This document shows, one piece after another, positions 3,195 through 11,183 of a DNA stretch of 11,262 bases (position 1 is the first letter of the stretch; each line of letters begins with the position of its first letter). Location: NCBI GenBank assembly GCA_024400895.1, contig JAKSMA010000060.1:1-11262 (forward strand). Direction: 5' to 3'. The DNA is from Muribaculaceae bacterium. Its GTDB lineage: Bacteria; Bacteroidota; Bacteroidia; Bacteroidales; Muribaculaceae. The notes under the pieces were generated by a model. It was not told the origin of the DNA. It was given only the letters and a program-made list of their open reading frames with translations, and did no database searches. The position numbers were made by a program, and so were the translations under genes.

Positions 3195-3231
3195 TTCAAG
3201 TGTGCAACACCACGCCCTTGAATTTTTATTT
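3195..3231 (+). terminator. intrinsic terminator after nnr
   Basis: TTCAAG (3195-3200) pairs with CTTGAA (3217-3222), with a further GTG/CAC inside, and TTTTTATTT follows. It starts two bases after the nnr stop codon and ends just before the cys operon promoter, separating the two transcripts. The stem is short, so strength is uncertain. Confidence 0.55.
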
Positions 3232-3249
3232 GAATTTTCTTGAAAAATA

Positions 3250-3281
3250 TTTGTTTTTTCAAAAAATGCAATATAACTTTG
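3250..3281 (+). promoter_or_regulatory. Bacteroidota-type promoter for the cys leader and cysK-cysE
   Basis: TTTG (3250-3253) and TAACTTTG (3274-3281) are separated by exactly 20 nt, the same geometry as the hpt promoter in this window. Transcription should start near 3287, about 20 nt before the leader-peptide ATG at 3308. This places the leader peptide, antiterminator and terminator all on the transcript ahead of cysK. Confidence 0.8.
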
Positions 3282-3307
3282 CGCCATCAAAACAAGAACA
3301 ACGAAAA

Positions 3308-3391
3308 ATGAAACACATCTTCATATCTTCACAAGCATGTTGCTGCTGTTGTACCGAATCAGTCAATTGGCTCGGTCTGATGGCTATGTGA
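3308..3391 (+). CDS. cysteine-run leader peptide of the cysK-cysE attenuator
   Basis: A 27-residue open frame beginning MKHIFISSQA, then five consecutive Cys codons (TGT TGC TGC TGT TGT, 3338-3352, residues 11-15), then TESVNWLGLMAM and TGA at 3389-3391. The length, the run of one amino acid matching the product of the downstream genes, the position about 20 nt after a promoter and upstream of a terminator, and the embedded antiterminator strand all mark it as a ribosome-stalling leader peptide rather than a functional protein. A frame beginning upstream at 3200 is also open, but it starts before the promoter and cannot be the translated form. When Cys-tRNA is scarce the ribosome should stall on 3338-3352. 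When cysteine is plentiful it should run to the stop codon and mask the antiterminator. Confidence 0.88.
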   Translation: MKHIFISSQACCCCCTESVNWLGLMAM

Positions 3392-3440
3392 TGATGTAAC
3401 TACTTTGTTTCACTTTCACGATATCAGCGCCTTGCCAATT
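3365..3440 (+). promoter_or_regulatory. antiterminator helix of the cysteine attenuator
   Basis: Hand pairing gives a long helix that excludes the terminator: AATTGGC (3365-3371) with GCCAATT (3434-3440); a 2x2 internal loop (3372-3373 against 3432-3433); GGT (3374-3376) with GCC (3429-3431, one G-U); a bulged C at 3428; and CTGATG (3377-3382) with TATCAG (3422-3427, one G-U). That is 16 base pairs. The 3' strand includes the whole 5' arm of the terminator (3428-3436). The 5' strand begins 13 nt past the last Cys codon, just outside the footprint of a ribosome stalled there, and ends just before the leader stop codon. A competing upstream hairpin, ACCGA (3353-3357) with TCGGT (3372-3376), would sequester part of the 5' strand. 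Confidence 0.8.
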
Positions 3441-3460
3441 TCGGCAGGGCGTTTTTTATT
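3427..3460 (+). terminator. intrinsic terminator of the cysteine attenuator
   Basis: CGCCTTGCC (3428-3436) pairs with GGCAGGGCG (3443-3451) through nine base pairs with one G-U, closing a 6-nt loop, with TTTTTTATT immediately after. It lies between the leader peptide and cysK, ending 43 nt before the cysK ATG. It is therefore a conditional terminator inside the operon leader and not the end of any gene. Confidence 0.92.
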
Positions 3461-3502
3461 CACGACATCATTAATAACAACAATAATAAATATACAAAAA
3501 TT

Positions 3503-4417
3503 ATGATTTATTCATCTATCAGCGAACTCGTAGGTCGCACCCCATTGGTAGAAGTGACCAGATTTGAAGGACAAAAAGCAAGAATCGCAGTGAAAGTGGA
3601 AGCTTTCAACCCTGGCGGCAGCGTGAAAGACCGCATCGCCTTGGCAATGATTGAAGATGCAGAAAAGAAAGGCATACTGAAACCAGGTGCCACCATCATT
3701 GAGCCTACCAGCGGCAACACTGGCGTGGGACTCGCTTGGGTGGGCGTGGCAAAAGGCTACAAGACCATTCTCACCATGCCCGACACCATGAGCATGGAAC
3801 GCCGCAACTTGCTGAAGGCCTATGGTGCGAAACTCGAACTCACCCCTGGTGCAGAGGGCATGAAGGGCGCCATCGCAAAGGCAAATGAATTGCGCGACTC
3901 TATTCCTGGCGCAGTGATTCTGGGTCAGTTTGTGAATCCAGCCAACCCTGCAATCCACGAAGCCACCACTGGCGAAGAAATCTGGGCCGACACCGAAGGC
4001 GCTGTCGACATTTTCGTGGCTGGCGTTGGCACTGGCGGAACAGTGAGCGGCACTGGAAAGGCGCTGAAGAAGCACAATCCTAATGTAAAAGTAGTGGCAG
4101 TGGAACCTGCAACCTCTGCTGTGCTCAGCACTGGCGTGGCTGGCAAGCACAAAATTCAAGGCATCGGTGCAGGATTCGTACCCGACACCTACAGTGCTGA
4201 AGTGGTCGACGAAATCATGCCTATGACCGACGACGACGCGTTTGAAGGTGCAAGAGCATTGGCTCGCACACGCGGTCTGCTGGTAGGCATCTCATCAGGC
4301 GCTGCATTCTCGGCAGCACTCGCTTTGGCAAGAAAAGAGGAAAACGCCGGCAAACTTATCGTGGCATTGCTGCCCGACACTGGCGAACGCTATTTATCCA
4401 CCGCTTTATTTGAATAA
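3503..4417 (+). CDS. cysK: cysteine synthase A (O-acetylserine sulfhydrylase)
   Basis: PLP enzyme that makes L-cysteine from O-acetylserine and sulfide in the cytosol. The 304-residue protein has the PLP lysine K42 in NPGGSVKDR (36-44), the substrate loop PTSGNTG (68-74), the phosphate-binding GVGTGGT (174-180), IQGIGAGFVP (218-227), and the late signature GISSGAAFSAAL (262-273) followed by LPDTGERYLS (290-299). All fold-type II O-acetylserine sulfhydrylase landmarks are present and the length is normal, so it is intact. It is the first structural gene after the cysteine attenuator and is followed after 3 nt by cysE, which supplies its O-acetylserine. CysK and CysE usually form the cysteine synthase complex, with the CysE C-terminal isoleucine entering the CysK active site. 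The CysE here does end in Ile. Confidence 0.97.
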   Translation: MIYSSISELVGRTPLVEVTRFEGQKARIAVKVEAFNPGGSVKDRIALAMIEDAEKKGILKPGATIIEPTSGNTGVGLAWVGVAKGYKTILTMPDTMSMERRNLLKAYGAKLELTPGAEGMKGAIAKANELRDSIPGAVILGQFVNPANPAIHEATTGEEIWADTEGAVDIFVAGVGTGGTVSGTGKALKKHNPNVKVVAVEPATSAVLSTGVAGKHKIQGIGAGFVPDTYSAEVVDEIMPMTDDDAFEGARALARTRGLLVGISSGAAFSAALALARKEENAGKLIVALLPDTGERYLSTALFE

Positions 4418-4420
4418 TTT

Positions 4421-5179
4421 ATGAAAGCACCATCCATATCACAGCTCAAACGACTGATGGAACTCGTGGGATATGTCATTTTCCCCGACTATTCAGATGT
4501 GCCTGCCTGGACCAACGGTCCCGAAGCCATCCGCGCCATCCTCTCCGAACAGCTGTCGACCATCTCCGAAATTGACGACCCTGCGAAAGTGGCTGACGAT
4601 TTCGTGGCAGCATTGCCCGAAATTTCACGACTGCTGCACACTGATGCCGACGCTGTGATGCACAACGACCCCGCTGTGAAGAGTATGCAAGAGGTGATTC
4701 TCTGCTATCCAGTGGTGAAGGTAATGATCAACCACCGCACCGCCCACCAGCTCCACTTGCAAGGTGTGCCCATCATTCCGCGCGTTATCGCCGAAATGGC
4801 ACACTCAACCACGGGTATCGACATCCACCCAGCCGCACAGATTGGCGAATATTTCAGCATCGACCACGGCACTGGCGTGGTGATTGGCGCCACGAGCATC
4901 ATCGGCAACCATGTGATGCTCTACCAGGGTGTGACACTCGGTGCAAAGAATTTCACTTATGACGAAAACGGTGTGCCCATCGATGTGCCCCGCCACCCTA
5001 TCTTGGAAGACCATGTGACCGTGTATTCCAACACCTCTATCCTTGGTCGCGTGCGAATCGGCCATCACACAGTGGTGGGAGGTAACGTGTGGCTCACCCA
5101 CGATGTGCCACCACACTCACGCATCCTCCAGAGCCAAGCCATCGAAGAGCCCTACTTCCAAGACGGCGCCGGCATCTAA
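4421..5179 (+). CDS. cysE: serine O-acetyltransferase
   Basis: Transfers acetyl from acetyl-CoA to L-serine, the first step of cysteine synthesis. The 252-residue protein has an alpha-helical N-terminal part (about 1-115) and a left-handed beta-helix of hexapeptide repeats (about 130-235). The core TGIDIHPAAQIG starts at 131. D134 and H149 (in SIDHGTG) have the same 15-residue spacing as the catalytic pair D143/H158 of E. coli CysE. An extra loop interrupts the helix near 176-190 (FTYDENGVPIDVPRHP), where E. coli CysE has a shorter segment. The chain ends in GAGI, and the terminal isoleucine is what CysK binds in known cysteine synthase complexes. It starts 3 nt after the cysK stop, so the two genes are surely co-transcribed and controlled by the same attenuator. 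The symbol epsC is also used for this subfamily. Confidence 0.95.
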   Translation: MKAPSISQLKRLMELVGYVIFPDYSDVPAWTNGPEAIRAILSEQLSTISEIDDPAKVADDFVAALPEISRLLHTDADAVMHNDPAVKSMQEVILCYPVVKVMINHRTAHQLHLQGVPIIPRVIAEMAHSTTGIDIHPAAQIGEYFSIDHGTGVVIGATSIIGNHVMLYQGVTLGAKNFTYDENGVPIDVPRHPILEDHVTVYSNTSILGRVRIGHHTVVGGNVWLTHDVPPHSRILQSQAIEEPYFQDGAGI

Positions 5180-6125: not shown

Positions 6126-6199
6126 CGGTGCGTACAGGACTCGAACCAGCGACCTCCTGCGTGACAGGCAGGCATTCTAACCAACTGAACTAACGCACC
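6126..6199 (-). tRNA. tRNA-Asp (anticodon GTC)
   Basis: A full cloverleaf on the minus strand. The acceptor stem is GGTGCGT (6199-6193) with ACGCACC (6133-6127). The anticodon arm is CCTGC-CTGTCAC-GCAGG with GTC at 6165-6163, and the T loop is TTCGAGT. The discriminator base is G (6126), as required for tRNA-Asp. CCA is not encoded. The T stem reads GCTGG against CCTGT, which leaves a U-U mismatch at the 51/63 pair where the E. coli tRNA-Asp has G-C. It has its own promoter and terminator. Confidence 0.96.
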
Positions 6200-6791: not shown

Positions 6792-7365
6792 ATAATTTGA
6801 ATTTTTCGGGAGTCTCTAAGCAATCGCAAGTTTTATAGTTATAGCCATAAAAAGCATATAATTCATCACCTAAGCTGATGAATGCAATCGCAAGTTTCGG
6901 GTATTTTAATTGAGGCGTGTTCCAACTCCCGAAAAATATCACCCAAGGGGTTGAATCAAAATTGCTATCAATATAGAGGGGCAATATCTCGGACACTTCA
7001 TATAACAACATGCAGAAGTTCCAGTTATAATCATCAGTGGTTCGGGTATCGTAAATATTGAGCGCAACAGAAGCAGTGTCTGGTTCCCCAGAATGAGCGA
7101 TGACAGTTTTTAAAGTTTCACCTTGTAAATTTAGTTTGGTTAGTGGAACACATGGAGGCGGGGCAAAAAATGACGGGCCATTAGCAGAATCAGGGTAAAA
7201 TTTGTGGTTGAGTATCCCGTCGTAGTCAATCTGTTTATACAGTGCCGAATCTTCTGGGGCTTCAGCTATTGTAACATGCGATGGCTTTGGGGATTTTTGT
7301 TGCTTTTGGCAAGAAACTAACGCTAAAAGCGACAATGCTATAATCGAAAACATGGCTTTCTTCAT
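6784..7365 (-). CDS. lipoprotein of unknown function, possible Rhs immunity-type protein
   Basis: The 193-residue product begins MKKAMFSIIALSLLALVSC, a clear lipoprotein signal peptide with the lipidated cysteine at 19, so it should be anchored in the periplasm or at the cell surface. A Lys/Gln/Pro-rich linker follows (20-30), then a folded domain of about 160 residues with several aromatic stretches (WVIFFGSWNTP, ELYAFYGYNYKT) and no recognisable catalytic motif. Its ATG overlaps the stop codon of the gene before it by 4 nt (ATGA), so the two are translationally coupled. The stop falls inside the Rhs remnant. The context of tandem small exported proteins beside Rhs debris suggests an orphan immunity protein; this is inference. 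Confidence 0.7.
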   Translation of the reverse strand: MKKAMFSIIALSLLALVSCQKQQKSPKPSHVTIAEAPEDSALYKQIDYDGILNHKFYPDSANGPSFFAPPPCVPLTKLNLQGETLKTVIAHSGEPDTASVALNIYDTRTTDDYNWNFCMLLYEVSEILPLYIDSNFDSTPWVIFFGSWNTPQLKYPKLAIAFISLGDELYAFYGYNYKTCDCLETPEKFKLYE

Positions 7366-7832
7366 TTTTGTTTCTTATTTATGTAACCGAAAAACACATG
7401 ATATTTATTTTCTGTCAAAAAACAGTAAGCCTTAATTGGGACCGGATTCTCTGAGTAGAAATTAACCGTTACTTGAATGTCGAAGATATATCCCGAAAAC
7501 TGGCTCTTTTCAATCGCAGACAACACACACCGGGGCATCTTTCCTGCAAGCTTATTGCAATCGCCTCTCTCGATTATATAAGGTTTTGTTCCCGACACAA
7601 CGTAATAATCATGTCGGAAATGCCTTTTCAGTAAGGAGTCGAGGATGCATTGTTGGTTATGCTTGCTCACGAGAATCTCATAATCAGCCAAACTGTCGTC
7701 AATGTTTGTAACATCAGCTGATATTGTATTTTTTCCTTCTGTTGCACTCTCTTTTTGGTTTTCTTGTTGTGAACAGCTATGGAATTGCAATCCCATCAAA
7801 AGGAGAAGAAATATGTTGATTAACTGTTTCAT
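7362..7832 (-). CDS. lipoprotein of unknown function, coupled to the next gene
   Basis: The 156-residue product begins MKQLINIFLLLLMGLQFHSC. The cysteine at 20 is the likely lipidation site, although Phe-His-Ser before it is not an ideal lipobox. A polar linker rich in Gln, Glu and Lys follows (21-45), then one compact domain. Its C-terminal YHVFFGYINKK is reminiscent of YAFYGYNYKT in the following gene, which may hint at distant relatedness of the coupled pair. It shares an ATGA overlap with the gene at 6784-7365. Upstream it is overlapped by an open frame of 44 codons (7777-7911). It contains one copy of a 15-bp direct repeat (7576-7590). No known family is recognised. Confidence 0.7.
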   Translation of the reverse strand: MKQLINIFLLLLMGLQFHSCSQQENQKESATEGKNTISADVTNIDDSLADYEILVSKHNQQCILDSLLKRHFRHDYYVVSGTKPYIIERGDCNKLAGKMPRCVLSAIEKSQFSGYIFDIQVTVNFYSENPVPIKAYCFLTENKYHVFFGYINKKQK

Positions 7833-7956
7833 TTTGAAGTCTTATGCTGTGAATACCCTTGTTGCGGACACTTGATGTTCCCTGAATATAAGGTTTTGTT
7901 TGATAACTCATAATCGTAAAATATGGGCTTTGGTATTTACTCCTTTGAACCAAACT

Positions 7957-9036
7957 TTATTTATACTCAATATCAACCCAGTGCCAGCATTTTATGGCTT
8001 GTCCATTTCGAATAGCCGGGCTTTTATATTTGAATGTTTTTGCAGTCTTAATTGCTTCTTGTTCTTGAGCGGTGGTTCCATTTGTTGATCTCAACTCAAC
8101 ACTGATAACATTCGCTTTTTCATCGATAAGCAAATCCAGTGCAAAACGACTTTTGGGGGCAATATTGTATTTTGCTCCATTGAGAACATGTATCTCGTGC
8201 CCATCTCTAAACTCAACTCCATTGTCCATAGGTTTGGGACTTATATCGACATAGCGTTTTTTCCCCGGCCAATCATAGTAAGCCCAGTTTCTTGTCATAT
8301 CGGACTCTGCCTTCTCTTTATTTCGATGGCTGATGGCTTTTTCTAAACATGGCTGATACCCCCATTCTGCCAACGATTTTTCCACATAAAGAATACTCAA
8401 AGTGCTTTTCACTGTTTCACATTGATAAATAATTGTGTCGCCTTGGTCCACTCTTTTATAGGATAAGTACCCTTCTGTAGCACTGGCCACATCTTGAAAC
8501 TCATCAACTTTTGCAAGATTCAATCTGCTGGTTGGGTAATTTCTACAAATATTGAGAATTTTATCAAACTTGCACTCGTCTGAAAGTAATTCGTTTTCCT
8601 GCAATCTAATATTAACCAAGGTGTTTTTGGTCTTAATGAAGAGATTATTACTTATAACTTTTTTGTCTCCTGAACACTTTGCGATTTCATGCTCAACAAT
8701 CGTGTCTCTGAAAAAATAGCGACATACATCAACATCTTCTTTTGACCAATATTTTGAATTAGAAGACCAATAATCTCCGTTAGAGTGATAGGTATACTTT
8801 ATTCGTGCTTCTATATCATTCGATGGCACAACAATGATTTCATTGTCACTTGATTTGATGTAAACAAAAGGTGAGTCAACGACATTACCTTCTCCTTTCA
8901 TATTGTATTCATTGAATGTTTGATATTTGCTAAATCCGTCCAATGATAGATTCTCTTGTGAGTGTTTACATGCACTAATAAAAAAGGCTGTAAATATTAC
9001 AGAAAAAAATATATTGCGGTTATTTATCATGTTCAT
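7957..9036 (-). CDS. lipoprotein with a TonB C-terminal-like domain
   Basis: The largest accessory gene, 359 residues. The signal peptide MNMINNRNIFFSVIFTAFFISAC has its lipobox cysteine at 23. Residues 24-290 are unassigned and include several cysteines (105, 121, 155, 164, 206, 230). The last 65 or so residues (about 295-359) read like a TonB C-terminal fold: a strand with VISVELRSTNG, a helix (EQEAIKTAKTF), then KYKSPAIRNGQAIKCW and a final strand WVDIEY. This matches the family pattern of SSG, helix, W/F-x-F-x-PA, NG-x-P/A-V. A lipid-anchored protein with this fold cannot act as a classical inner-membrane TonB, so a binding or immunity role is more likely. Met3 is an alternative start. 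A possible C-terminal gene fragment lies immediately upstream. Confidence 0.75.
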   Translation of the reverse strand: MNMINNRNIFFSVIFTAFFISACKHSQENLSLDGFSKYQTFNEYNMKGEGNVVDSPFVYIKSSDNEIIVVPSNDIEARIKYTYHSNGDYWSSNSKYWSKEDVDVCRYFFRDTIVEHEIAKCSGDKKVISNNLFIKTKNTLVNIRLQENELLSDECKFDKILNICRNYPTSRLNLAKVDEFQDVASATEGYLSYKRVDQGDTIIYQCETVKSTLSILYVEKSLAEWGYQPCLEKAISHRNKEKAESDMTRNWAYYDWPGKKRYVDISPKPMDNGVEFRDGHEIHVLNGAKYNIAPKSRFALDLLIDEKANVISVELRSTNGTTAQEQEAIKTAKTFKYKSPAIRNGQAIKCWHWVDIEYK

Positions 9037-9039
9037 CGA

Positions 9040-9228
9040 TTAATTGTCAAAATACAGGTGGATTAATTGTTTGTTTCCTTGGTTCCAAAAGAATCCTCTT
9101 GAACAGTCAATGGATAAATTATAAATCGGAACGGCCTTTTTCCCAGAATTTGATATCATATAATCATTTCCATAATTATTTCCTGATAATGCTCCAAGAA
9201 TAAAATTTTTAAGAGGAGAATATTGTGA
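9040..9228 (-). pseudogene. C-terminal fragment of an unidentified protein, no start codon
   Basis: An open stretch of 62 codons begins right after an in-frame TAA (9231-9229) and ends at TAA 9042-9040, 4 bp before the lipoprotein gene at 9036. It reads SQYSPLKNFILGALSGNNYG and continues through FFWNQGNKQLIHLYFDN. The only ATG is 24 codons in. The composition (Gly, Asn, Tyr, Trp and hydrophobic patches) looks like real protein rather than intergenic sequence, so this is probably the truncated 3' end of a displaced gene, perhaps an exchanged toxin tip or immunity gene. No family is recognised. Confidence 0.45.
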
Positions 9229-9247
9229 TTAGATTCCTTGCTCCGTT

Positions 9248-9799
9248 TTAGTCATATATCATTTCTTGTTTATGGCAGAATAGCACATTGTTGAAATTAT
9301 CAAATATAAACCAAAAACAGGTGCCAGAGTTAAAACGGATGTAATTCTTCAATCGATGTTTGTGGTAATCATTGAGTCTTGCAAGCCTTTTTGTATAGTC
9401 GGTTTCTTCTATAGCCAAAGCTATAAGACAATTGTCCTCAAGGTGTGAAAAAAATATGACCATTGGAGCATTATCGTCTTGCATCCTCTTCATTGCAGCC
9501 AATAAATCACATCTTTGGGGCGGACGACAACAATTAGATATCATATTTTCGAATGAAAAAACCTCTGCTAATTTTGTGCTGTCATCTGGAAATTTTGCAA
9601 TTTCTTTTTCAGGAAAAGAGAATACTATTTCTCTCATATCATATACAGTATCAGAAATAGTAAATGCGCCATAGTCAAGGTTGAGAGATGATTTTATGCT
9701 ATCAAGAGCTATCTCATAACGTTCATCAGTATTTTGTCCAAAACAAAAAATTGCATTGGATATAATCATTGCAGCAAACACGAATATGAATCGATACAT
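9248..9799 (-). CDS. secreted protein of unknown function
   Basis: The 183-residue product begins MYRFIFVFAAMIISNAIFCF, a Sec signal peptide with probable cleavage before GQNTDERYE. The cysteine at 19 is not in a good lipobox, so a soluble periplasmic or secreted protein is more likely than a lipoprotein. The mature domain contains paired cysteines (NCCRPPQRC, near 89-97) and several Phe/Trp-rich stretches (FWFIFDNFNNVLFC). No catalytic motif is evident. It lies between remnants of other genes on both sides (9802-9891 and 9040-9228), as expected for one unit of a cassette array. The AT-rich base composition matches the rest of the accessory block and differs from the core genes at the left. 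Confidence 0.7.
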   Translation of the reverse strand: MYRFIFVFAAMIISNAIFCFGQNTDERYEIALDSIKSSLNLDYGAFTISDTVYDMREIVFSFPEKEIAKFPDDSTKLAEVFSFENMISNCCRPPQRCDLLAAMKRMQDDNAPMVIFFSHLEDNCLIALAIEETDYTKRLARLNDYHKHRLKNYIRFNSGTCFWFIFDNFNNVLFCHKQEMIYD

Positions 9800-9801
9800 A
9801 A

Positions 9802-9891
9802 TTATTGATTTTTAAAGTATATAAATTTTTGATATAAATATGTTGTTTCGTTATCCCGAACTCGCGTTATCAGTTTCTCAATAAAAGACAT
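9802..9891 (-). CDS. possible 29-residue small open frame
   Basis: It begins one base after the stop of the preceding lipoprotein gene and ends two bases before the ATG at 9799. It would encode MSFIEKLITRVRDNETTYLY and nine further residues. It fills the gap almost exactly and is basic and amphipathic, but there is no independent support. It could equally be a remnant or plain spacer. Confidence 0.25.
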   Translation of the reverse strand: MSFIEKLITRVRDNETTYLYQKFIYFKNQ

Positions 9892-9892
9892 A

Positions 9893-10333
9893 TTATTTAA
9901 CAAGGTATGGTCCGTTCAACTCATTACAAATGTAGATGTCATCGTGTGGCTCTCTGCCAATGCTTACACCATGGAAAACTATATTTAATCCATTGTTGGG
10001 TATCATATTAAATTTCTTTTCTGCACTTTTAAACTGAGAAAGAAGTTCTGAAGAAAACTTTGAACCCGTTTTCAGTTTCACCCCCTTTTTTCGCTCCTTG
10101 TTATAATAGCTTGCTATTTTGAAAATCGAGTCATTTCTAGAAGCATATATGATATACACATCTTGATTCATCTTGACAATTTCTTTTACAGTATAGTATT
10201 GCATTTGTGACGTGTCATTTAAATATTCCTGAATGTTTTTGCATCCAAGCAGTAAGATTAACACACAAAATAATGCTACATTTACTAACCTATGGATAGG
10301 ATTGGATTTTTTGCTCTTCAAATGGCTCAACAT
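9893..10333 (-). CDS. lipoprotein overlapping a possible toxin tip, candidate immunity protein
   Basis: I choose the ATG at 10333, giving 146 residues, because it places a lipoprotein signal correctly: a basic stretch (SHLKSKKSNPIHR), the hydrophobic segment VNVALFCVLILLLG, then the lipobox cysteine at 31. The frame is open further upstream to 10519, but those 62 extra codons would put a long basic leader before the signal and lie wholly within the other reading frame's protein. The mature domain (about 115 residues) is basic, with no known motif. Its start lies 44 nt inside the 3' end of the HEVTEAYQG-containing frame. That is the usual order and tight coupling of a toxin followed by its immunity gene, so it is the best immunity candidate here. 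Confidence 0.6.
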   Translation of the reverse strand: MLSHLKSKKSNPIHRLVNVALFCVLILLLGCKNIQEYLNDTSQMQYYTVKEIVKMNQDVYIIYASRNDSIFKIASYYNKERKKGVKLKTGSKFSSELLSQFKSAEKKFNMIPNNGLNIVFHGVSIGREPHDDIYICNELNGPYLVK

Positions 10334-10619
10334 TTGAGCGAATATACCATACTGCATTAGTCGCTTTGAGAGAATTTTGAGTTTCATTTCCTTCTTTATC
10401 ATATAATTTTTGATATACTTGTGGTTGAACAGAGGCTTTACCATGCGCTTCTGTATATACAGAATTGGGTTGCCCTGCTTCAGGACTTGAAGCCTTCCTT
10501 TCTGCCGAAATTTTAGCACCTTGATAAGCTTCTGTTACTTCATGTAAGATAGATGTGCCAATATCTGAAAATCCATCCATTTTTTCTAATACGAATGGAT
10601 TCACCTCTTGAAAAGCCAA
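10290..10619 (-). CDS. N-terminally incomplete protein, possible polymorphic-toxin tip with a HEVTEAYQG motif
   Basis: The frame is open from the stop of the previous gene (10635-10637) to TAG at 10290, but no ATG occurs until codon 19 (10565). The first possible start is TTG at 10619. It reads FQEVNPFVLEKMDGFSD, then GTSILHEVTEAYQGAKIS, with NSVYTEAHGKA farther on. The His-Glu pair in LHEVTEA plus a later His could form a metallo-hydrolase-like centre, but this is inference and the motif is not a standard HExxH. The lack of a proper start and the abrupt beginning suggest the C-terminal tip of a larger toxin separated from its shell, fitting the Rhs remnant elsewhere in the block. A lipoprotein gene overlaps its 3' end. 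It might still be a short functional protein starting at 10565 (91 residues). Confidence 0.5.
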   Translation of the reverse strand: MAFQEVNPFVLEKMDGFSDIGTSILHEVTEAYQGAKISAERKASSPEAGQPNSVYTEAHGKASVQPQVYQKLYDKEGNETQNSLKATNAVWYIRSNVEPFEEQKIQSYP

Positions 10620-10634
10620 CCCTTTATATGCGTT

Positions 10635-11183
10635 TTAATCTTCTGTCGCCAAATATTGGATGCAGCCAATTTTATGATATATACGGTCGTAGGTGTCAAG
10701 TTTGCTATCCCCATAAAGGAATGTGTTATATTTGAAAACTTGTATTAATTCAGAATCTGAAATAAGAGAATCGTTTGCTTCTTTTATTCTCAGCAATTTG
10801 GCGTAAAATAAAGGGTGGCTCCTTTTGAAAATCCAAATCTGATGCTCGAAAACGAGCATCATGTAAATAGGATGGTGACTTACTCTCCTAAATTGAAAAC
10901 TATATACTCCAAAATCCATATTTATATCATCATCTGTATCAGTAAAACCAAAATCACGATTATGGATAACATCTGTCATGTAAAAAATATCATAAAAATC
11001 TTTTGCTGTCACATGCTCTTGTTGAATCACTTCTTTCACACTCTCCCCCCAAAAGAGAGAAGGCTCCTTTCCTTTACTGAAATAATCTAAGATGCTTTCG
11101 TAAACATGCTTTGTTTGGTCATTAAAGGCGAAAGATGATGAGCTTAGTAATAAACTACATAATATTAGTAAAGCCTTTTTCAT
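10635..11183 (-). CDS. signal-peptide protein of unknown function
   Basis: The 182-residue product begins MKKALLILCSLLLSSSSFAF, a Sec signal peptide with likely cleavage after SFA, giving a soluble periplasmic protein beginning FNDQTKHVYES. There is no lipobox. The mature part has an acidic segment (TDTDDDINMDFG, about 80-91) and aromatic-rich stretches such as HPIYMMLVFEHQIWIFKRSH. No catalytic motif is visible. Its ATG overlaps the stop codon of the gene entering from the right (ATGA), so the two are coupled. That is compatible with an effector-immunity pair in which this is the periplasmic immunity protein. The possible toxin-tip frame begins in the same reading frame directly after its stop. 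The identity of any partner cannot be seen in this window. Confidence 0.7.
   Translation of the reverse strand: MKKALLILCSLLLSSSSFAFNDQTKHVYESILDYFSKGKEPSLFWGESVKEVIQQEHVTAKDFYDIFYMTDVIHNRDFGFTDTDDDINMDFGVYSFQFRRVSHHPIYMMLVFEHQIWIFKRSHPLFYAKLLRIKEANDSLISDSELIQVFKYNTFLYGDSKLDTYDRIYHKIGCIQYLATED

Follow-up and report, generated by a model that had tools for sequence, protein, structure and literature searches.

We consider it highly probable, and the most likely reading, that positions 3250-3457 of the 11,262-nt stretch of Muribaculaceae DNA analysed here (the window) form a ribosome-mediated transcription attenuator that reads the charging of Cys-tRNA ahead of the cysK-cysE operon. The basis of this reading is the set of parts found in the leader, their conservation in relatives, the covariation of both alternative helices and a calculated ribosome geometry; from these we infer where transcription starts, that the leader is translated, that ribosomes stall and transcripts terminate within it, and that the system responds to cysteine. 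A shortage of charged tRNA-Cys would arrest the first ribosome at the Cys codons, where it would cover the protector strand (3345-3357). Segment 2 (3365-3382) could then pair with segment 3 (3422-3440), which would block the terminator and allow transcription of cysK-cysE. When cysteine is plentiful, the ribosome would move on toward the stop codon and cover segment 2, whereupon the terminator (3426-3457) would form and the transcript would end. An earlier note on this DNA had described the attenuator as complete, which holds for its anatomy, the function being predicted.

Parts of the leader region

The leader region and the operon comprise the following features.

3250..3281, plus strand: promoter-like element predicted from sequence, with TTTG at 3250-3253, a 20-nt spacer and TAACTTTG at 3274-3281
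3308..3391, plus strand: leader ORF of 27 codons, ATG at 3308 and TGA at 3389-3391; peptide MKHIFISSQACCCCCTESVNWLGLMAM
3338..3352, plus strand: regulatory Cys-codon run, TGT TGC TGC TGT TGT
3345..3384, plus strand: protector hairpin (segment 1:2), 3353-3357 with 3372-3376 in the minimum-free-energy folds; comparative support weak
3365..3382, plus strand: antiterminator 5' strand (segment 2), from fold, covariation and cognate pairing
3422..3440, plus strand: antiterminator 3' strand (segment 3), which includes the 5' arm of the terminator, from fold and covariation
3426..3457, plus strand: predicted intrinsic terminator, covarying, with stem 3426-3436/3443-3453 and T6 at 3452-3457
3503..4417, plus strand: cysK, cysteine synthase A (304 aa), TIGR01139 at 437 bits, above the cut-off of 351
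4421..5179, plus strand: cysE, serine O-acetyltransferase (252 aa), TIGR01172 at 147 bits, the top family, under the cut-off of 211

The promoter elements that the earlier note had placed at 3250-3281 are present in the sequence as TTTG and TAACTTTG, a combination of TTTG and -7 box of the Bacteroidota promoter type. The 27-codon leader with five Cys codons was likewise found as described. Folding of 3353-3440 reproduced the claimed 16-bp antiterminator (-24.2 kcal/mol), in which 3365-3371 and 3374-3382 are paired with 3422-3427, 3429-3431 and 3434-3440, and in the longer fold of 3287-3425 the protector stem gains further pairs between 3345-3351, within the last Cys codons, and 3378-3384. The intrinsic terminator, its stem spanning 3426-3453 and followed by a T tract, folds at -19.9 kcal/mol (z -5.3, fold of 3422-3460) and ranks second among the 14 terminator-like sites listed for the window; the gap before cysK, previously given as 43 nt, is 45 nt when counted from the T tract. 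The proposed mutual exclusivity of antiterminator and terminator was borne out by the folds, by cognate pairing and by covariation.

A run of five TGY codons occurs at nine places, representing five separate sites, in the 2.18-Mb genome. All five were inspected, and only the cysK leader combined a promoter upstream with a terminator downstream; one of the others, L119, lies within the short ORF MAFLARRRCCCCCYKN and is without a terminator-like site. At 3200-3510, no Rfam family scored close to its gathering threshold, including T-box and Bacteroid-trp, the latter a Trp leader attenuator, and in 14 related loci tRNA was the sole match. Two candidate definitions of a wider regulon, one from TGY runs in five genomes and one from a DNA pattern in three parts (31 of 393 genomes matched, strings judged by eye), were rejected as too noisy.

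Cys-run leaders ahead of cysK in relatives

Using CysK as the probe, we surveyed relatives (41 genomes, up to 30 loci), named genomes (best 80 of 540 loci), the window's genus (101 genomes, 18 matching at E 1e-60, all 18 loci inspected), its family (297 genomes, 158 matching at 1e-100, best 30 loci inspected) and its order (393 genomes, 37 matching at 1e-125, best 30 loci). A leader was counted where a Cys run was accompanied by a terminator, and short ORFs with CC or C.C alone (e.g. L014, L055, L127 and L128) were excluded; 34 loci without the CysK motif were left out of one ORF survey, and L005, L006, L043 and L124 were added by coordinates for the tree described below. As the earlier note had predicted, the Cys run is conserved: among the loci inspected, a Cys-run leader with a terminator precedes cysK in at least 24 loci, 21 of them distinct (L001, L002, L003, L031, L032, L033, L035, L039-L042, L044-L046, L082, L120-L123, L162, L163, L173, L179 and L222), and it is present in 7 of the 18 CysK loci of the window's genus. 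No leader was found in 27 further CysK loci of the order (25 searched by ORF, all 27 by the model R1 described below); two of these, L253 and L267, have CC within a short ORF.

All 20 leaders that were tabulated, the window's included, carry a run of two to five Cys residues, while the peptides are otherwise varied, with run length and neighbouring residues differing widely. Their 73 Cys codons comprise 54 TGT and 19 TGC, and both codons occur in 15 of the 20 runs, which indicates that the amino acid, and not a simple repeat, is conserved. Sixteen of these 20 leaders are preceded within 70 nt by a -7 box, which in 6 of the 20 ends 5-8 nt before the leader ATG. Downstream, cysE follows cysK in 18 of the 23 leader loci checked (all but L222), in L045 after about 180 nt. 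L035 and L046 lack cysE at this place, and L082, L179 and L173 run into the contig end; the genome of L179 (G534) has a cysE at the beginning of a different contig, which fits adjacency of the two genes.

Several loci have features of their own. In L042, a tRNA gene (1249-1321, Rfam) ends 4 nt before the leader ATG (leader from 1326), so that transcription of the attenuator probably begins at the tRNA promoter. L038 has no leader; there, cysK comes right after a tRNA-like stretch and a terminator, recognized by eye. The leader of L003 (genome G013) has two Cys codons, a remote stop codon, a weak terminator (-9.9) and a poor T tract, and may perhaps be a decaying attenuator. In L045, the CysE N-terminus MNRQHIRQN resembles the leader peptide of the same operon, MNRKHYRQN, through either duplication or chance. 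Within the window's genus, CysK was found at E 1e-60 in only 18 of 101 genomes (5 of the 48 of good quality), spread over several lineages; cysteine auxotrophy or an alternative route may be common there.

In a quick CysK tree (57 rows, SH-aLRT support only, four duplicates omitted), all 20 leader rows fell within one clade of 43 rows (support 98), and the leader state required 11 changes on the tree versus 16.6 in shuffles, with none of 500 shuffles as low. The window's genus is scattered at several places inside and outside this clade, which suggests operon transfer or repeated loss. Counting against the attenuator reading, the leader is absent from 23 of the 43 clade rows. In 18 of these 23 rows, a same-strand ORF of at least 80 codons (called by ORF alone) ends within 90 nt upstream of cysK, and 4 have a -7 box no more than 80 nt from cysK, L004 having both the box and the upstream ORF. 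Leader rows have no such ORF within 180 nt upstream, except L044, where the ORF call corresponds to the leader frame; L123 alone among the leader rows also has a -7 box close to cysK. The pattern is thus that cysK tends to lack the leader where it stands behind another gene.

Alternative helices and predicted ribosome position

Covariation was assessed on alignment A4, which holds 11 of 19 leaders; L003, L035, L040, L041, L045, L082, L123 and L173 were omitted as poorly alignable, and the pair counts therefore favour alignable leaders. The preceding alignments A1-A3 were discarded because several leaders were misaligned. In A4, compensatory changes were found in both helices, as anticipated in the earlier note. 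Pairing in the terminator amounts to 94.5%, and 7 of 10 pairs show two-sided changes (23 cells), with a covariation score reached by 0 of 500 shuffles. For the antiterminator, pairing is 89.7%, two-sided changes affect 5 of 11 pairs (11 cells), and the score was reached by 2 of 500. Sliding the antiterminator out of register lowered its pairing to 23-48%. Two further measures for the antiterminator in A4, the number of further pair types (163/500) and of pairs with two-sided change (100/500), did not rise above the shuffles. For the protector hairpin, 80% of cells are paired in the same 11 leaders, with two-sided changes at 2 of 6 pairs and a score of 9/500, a weak signal.

The pairing of segments 2 and 3 was further compared between cognate and non-cognate partners in 19 leaders, a set without L031 and L120 (near copies of L001), L163 (identical to L032), L179 (identical to L082) and L222. 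The cognate duplexes averaged -19.6 versus -13.4 kcal/mol for non-cognate ones, none of 20,000 permutations was as good, and the result held on a thinned set of 15 leaders. Against the attenuator reading, the cognate terminator arm ranked first in just 7 of the 19 rows, and some leaders are individually weak, the cognate energy being reached by shuffles in 150 of 500 cases for L044, 72 of 500 for L003, 25 for L045 and 22 for L041.

To position the ribosome, the transcript was cut before the 3' arm of the terminator, a ribosome was masked at each codon and the antiterminator probability was taken from folding. Across the 19 leaders, this probability averaged 0.91 with a Cys codon in the A site, 0.17 with the ribosome at the stop codon and 0.43 without a ribosome (Wilcoxon 7.6e-6 and 1.3e-4, for related leaders that are not independent). 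For the window's leader, the probability is 0.97 for every Cys codon, 0.00 for the stop codon and 0.61 when no ribosome is placed. The two-state fold thus behaved as the earlier note had predicted for most leaders: the antiterminator was more probable on Cys than at the stop codon in 18 of 19, and its probability at the stop codon was 0.31 or lower in 16 of 19. The further claim that a ribosome at the stop codon covers the antiterminator 5' strand stood for the window and failed in a few relatives, namely L003 (0.89), L162 (0.66), L039 (0.61) and three of the five cysE-first leaders described below.

Along the leader, the mean probability was 0.87-0.94 across the last Cys codon and the four codons before it and 0.65-0.81 farther upstream, and it fell to 0.75, 0.40 and 0.13 at one, two and three codons past the last Cys codon. 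With three footprint sizes, the mean over the 19 leaders crossed one half 1-3 codons after the last Cys codon, the two other sizes moving the boundary by about one codon. The ON/OFF boundary is therefore predicted to be tied to the last Cys codon, as a property of the fold calculation and not as evidence of stalling. Nine of the 19 leaders, among them the window's, gave an antiterminator probability of 0.53 or more without a ribosome; the untranslated state is therefore not plainly OFF, which counts against the attenuator reading.

Leaders for other amino acids and relation to known systems

The sequence model R1 was built from the cysK Cys leaders and carries no gene information. On eight held-out leaders, it recovered six at E 0.03 or better, gave L123 at 0.69 and missed L003. 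In the 101 genomes of the genus, all six matches below 1e-11 lay at cysK; the leaders of G013 and G060 were missed, and further Cys leaders are thus possible. No Cys leader was found among the weaker genus matches inspected (L225, L230, L234, L238 and L242), and one of these, L230 (genome G075, E 0.01), holds a Phe/Tyr leader, MKRFSAYYYFYYFYFTKNKGGIGIAQ, from 1465, followed by a terminator and a prephenate dehydratase gene. In the 393 genomes of the order, R1 gave 28 matches including the window's own; they comprise two leaders for Cys, six for Trp and one for His, the rest being terminators or chance; on 91 other loci, its best E was 0.12. The six Trp leaders (L287, L288, L289, L298, L299 and L304, from several families) carry WWW and a terminator, and the anthranilate synthase I gene (trpE) lies downstream in all five tested (L287, L289, L298, L299 and L304). 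The His leader of L301 (genome G229, family f13), MINRLHIHFHLHHHPKLVSMENNM, starts at about 1454 in the reverse complement and is followed by hisG and a histidinol dehydrogenase gene. Since R1 knows nothing of genes, its retrieval of Trp, His and Phe/Tyr leaders serves as an unplanned control for reading these elements as leaders of amino-acid operons.

The two Cys leaders, L284 (family f82, the second-best match in the order) and L308 (family f99, the sixth), stand before cysE-cysK. Four of the 11 f99 genomes have this CysE, and all four carry a leader (CCC, CWCC, CC and CCC) with a terminator, its -7 box ending exactly 4 nt before the ATG in 4 of 4. Of the five cysE-first leaders, comprising L311 (the leader of L308), L312-L314 and L315 (the leader of L284), pairing was clearly better than in shuffles for L311 (6/500), L313 (9/500) and L315 (17/500), modestly so for L312 (59) and not better for L314 (211). 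Their calculated boundary, too, falls 1-4 codons past the last Cys codon. L311 (0.73), L313 (0.93) and L315 (0.87) regained the antiterminator once the ribosome was placed at the stop codon, and in these leaders the OFF state would rest on a ribosome in transit or on its fast release.

These results also bear on what the leader might sense. Cys-rich peptides can bind metals, and a run of two to five Cys is what the otherwise diverse leader peptides have in common; a nascent poly-Cys peptide might therefore bind a metal or an oxidant and arrest the ribosome, so that the switch would sense metal or redox state in place of Cys-tRNA. We regard this as very unlikely, as the regulated genes make cysteine, the length and neighbours of the Cys run vary widely, the calculated boundary of the antiterminator follows the last Cys codon as it occupies the A site, and R1 also finds Trp, His and Phe/Tyr leaders, for which a metal signal is hardly possible. 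Only a very slim chance is given to a leader that acts mainly through Rho, RNA stability or translation, with the hairpins secondary. Such a route was suggested, with Rho, for mycobacterial cys leaders without conserved terminators (PMC1262725), and it would suit the several leaders in which the calculated stop-codon ribosome leaves the antiterminator unblocked; in the present leaders, however, the terminator is present and covarying, the alternative helix covaries too, and the terminator, about 45 nt from cysK, does not hide the start codon. A constitutive terminator beside an unrelated short ORF, with the alternative helix as a by-product, would fit a terminator that is stable by itself (-19.9 kcal/mol) and has next to no chance given the recurrence of the Cys run, the covariation and the cognate pairing.

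As an attenuator reading Cys-tRNA, the leader follows a classical design. In the classical attenuators of Proteobacteria, trp and his among them, the position of the ribosome on a run of codons for the regulated amino acid is the switch. The present leader shares with them the codon run for its own amino acid, the mutually exclusive antiterminator and terminator, and, in its predicted folds, a protector stem that reaches into the regulatory codons; it differs in its cysteine signal, its cysK-cysE or cysE-cysK target, its Bacteroidales host, its Bacteroidota-type promoter and a leader ATG that is often very close to the predicted transcript start.

Cys-codon leaders in other phyla, which the earlier note had mentioned as proposals, are indeed on record. 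Before cysS in Rhodobacterales, uORFC-8-2 has tandem Cys codons at which stalling was proposed to give read-through (PMC8632094). According to the available part of that source, uORFC-8-2 resembles the window's leader in its Cys-codon leader, a first stem holding the Cys codons, and a terminator stem with a U run; it belongs to Alphaproteobacteria and to a tRNA synthetase gene, has two Cys codons and comes, in that part, with no description of antiterminator covariation, whereas the window's leader stands before cysK-cysE in Bacteroidales. For Actinobacteria, PMC1262725 reports Cys-codon runs before cys operons or cbs, without conserved terminator hairpins, and suggests Rho or translation. Mycobacterial cysteine genes are under translation attenuation according to Canestrari 2020, as cited in PMC13236596, and like these mycobacterial Cys leaders, with their leaderless start, several Bacteroidales relatives have a promoter spacing that suggests a leaderless start.

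Within the phylum, Bacteroid-trp (RF01692) is listed in PMC2864571, leader-peptide attenuation before amino-acid operons is predicted from clues in Flavobacterium (PMC9723704), and some sORFs of B. thetaiotaomicron are said to resemble leader peptides (PMC7366714). A 2010 paper stated that, with the exception of ermC, no leader peptides were known outside Proteobacteria and Actinobacteria (PMC2965389). Bacteroid-trp and the Flavobacterium leaders share the phylum with the Cys leader but concern other amino acids, and the Cys leader has no Rfam match. The proposed mechanism is classical, and both Cys-codon leaders and Bacteroidota leaders were already known. The earlier note's statement that it knew of no described cysK-cysE example in this group holds for the open-licence papers listed in our searches, among which we found no described Cys attenuator in Bacteroidota; it does not extend to leaders in Bacteroidota as such, which are not new. 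The combination of the cysteine signal with the cysK-cysE operon is accordingly, within that literature, not described for Bacteroidota.

Classical attenuation requires the first ribosome to follow close behind RNA polymerase, and Bacteroidota are not known to use the usual Shine-Dalgarno initiation. Since attenuation needs a close ribosome, the covarying leaders offer indirect evidence for transcription-translation coupling in Bacteroidota, and the -7 boxes ending 4-8 nt before the ATG make some of the leaders look leaderless or nearly so. It is, in our judgement, an evenly balanced proposition that Bacteroidales use leader-peptide attenuation generally (Cys, Trp, His and Phe/Tyr), with a Cys branch on cysK-cysE and cysE-cysK, and that many of the leader ORFs lie at the transcript's very start, where a ribosome loaded without Shine-Dalgarno would have only about 150 nt in which to stay close to RNA polymerase. 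If true, the leaders would be a natural readout of this coupling in Bacteroidota, for which a limited search of the open-licence literature returned nothing. Cysteine synthesis in Bacteroidales also gains a specific, testable candidate regulator, and R1 finds more leaders, those for other amino acids included.

Elsewhere in the window, tRNA was the sole Rfam family matched, as a tRNA gene at 6126-6199 on the minus strand. A run of short ORFs at 7362-11183, also on the minus strand, appears by eye to be secreted or lipoprotein-like.
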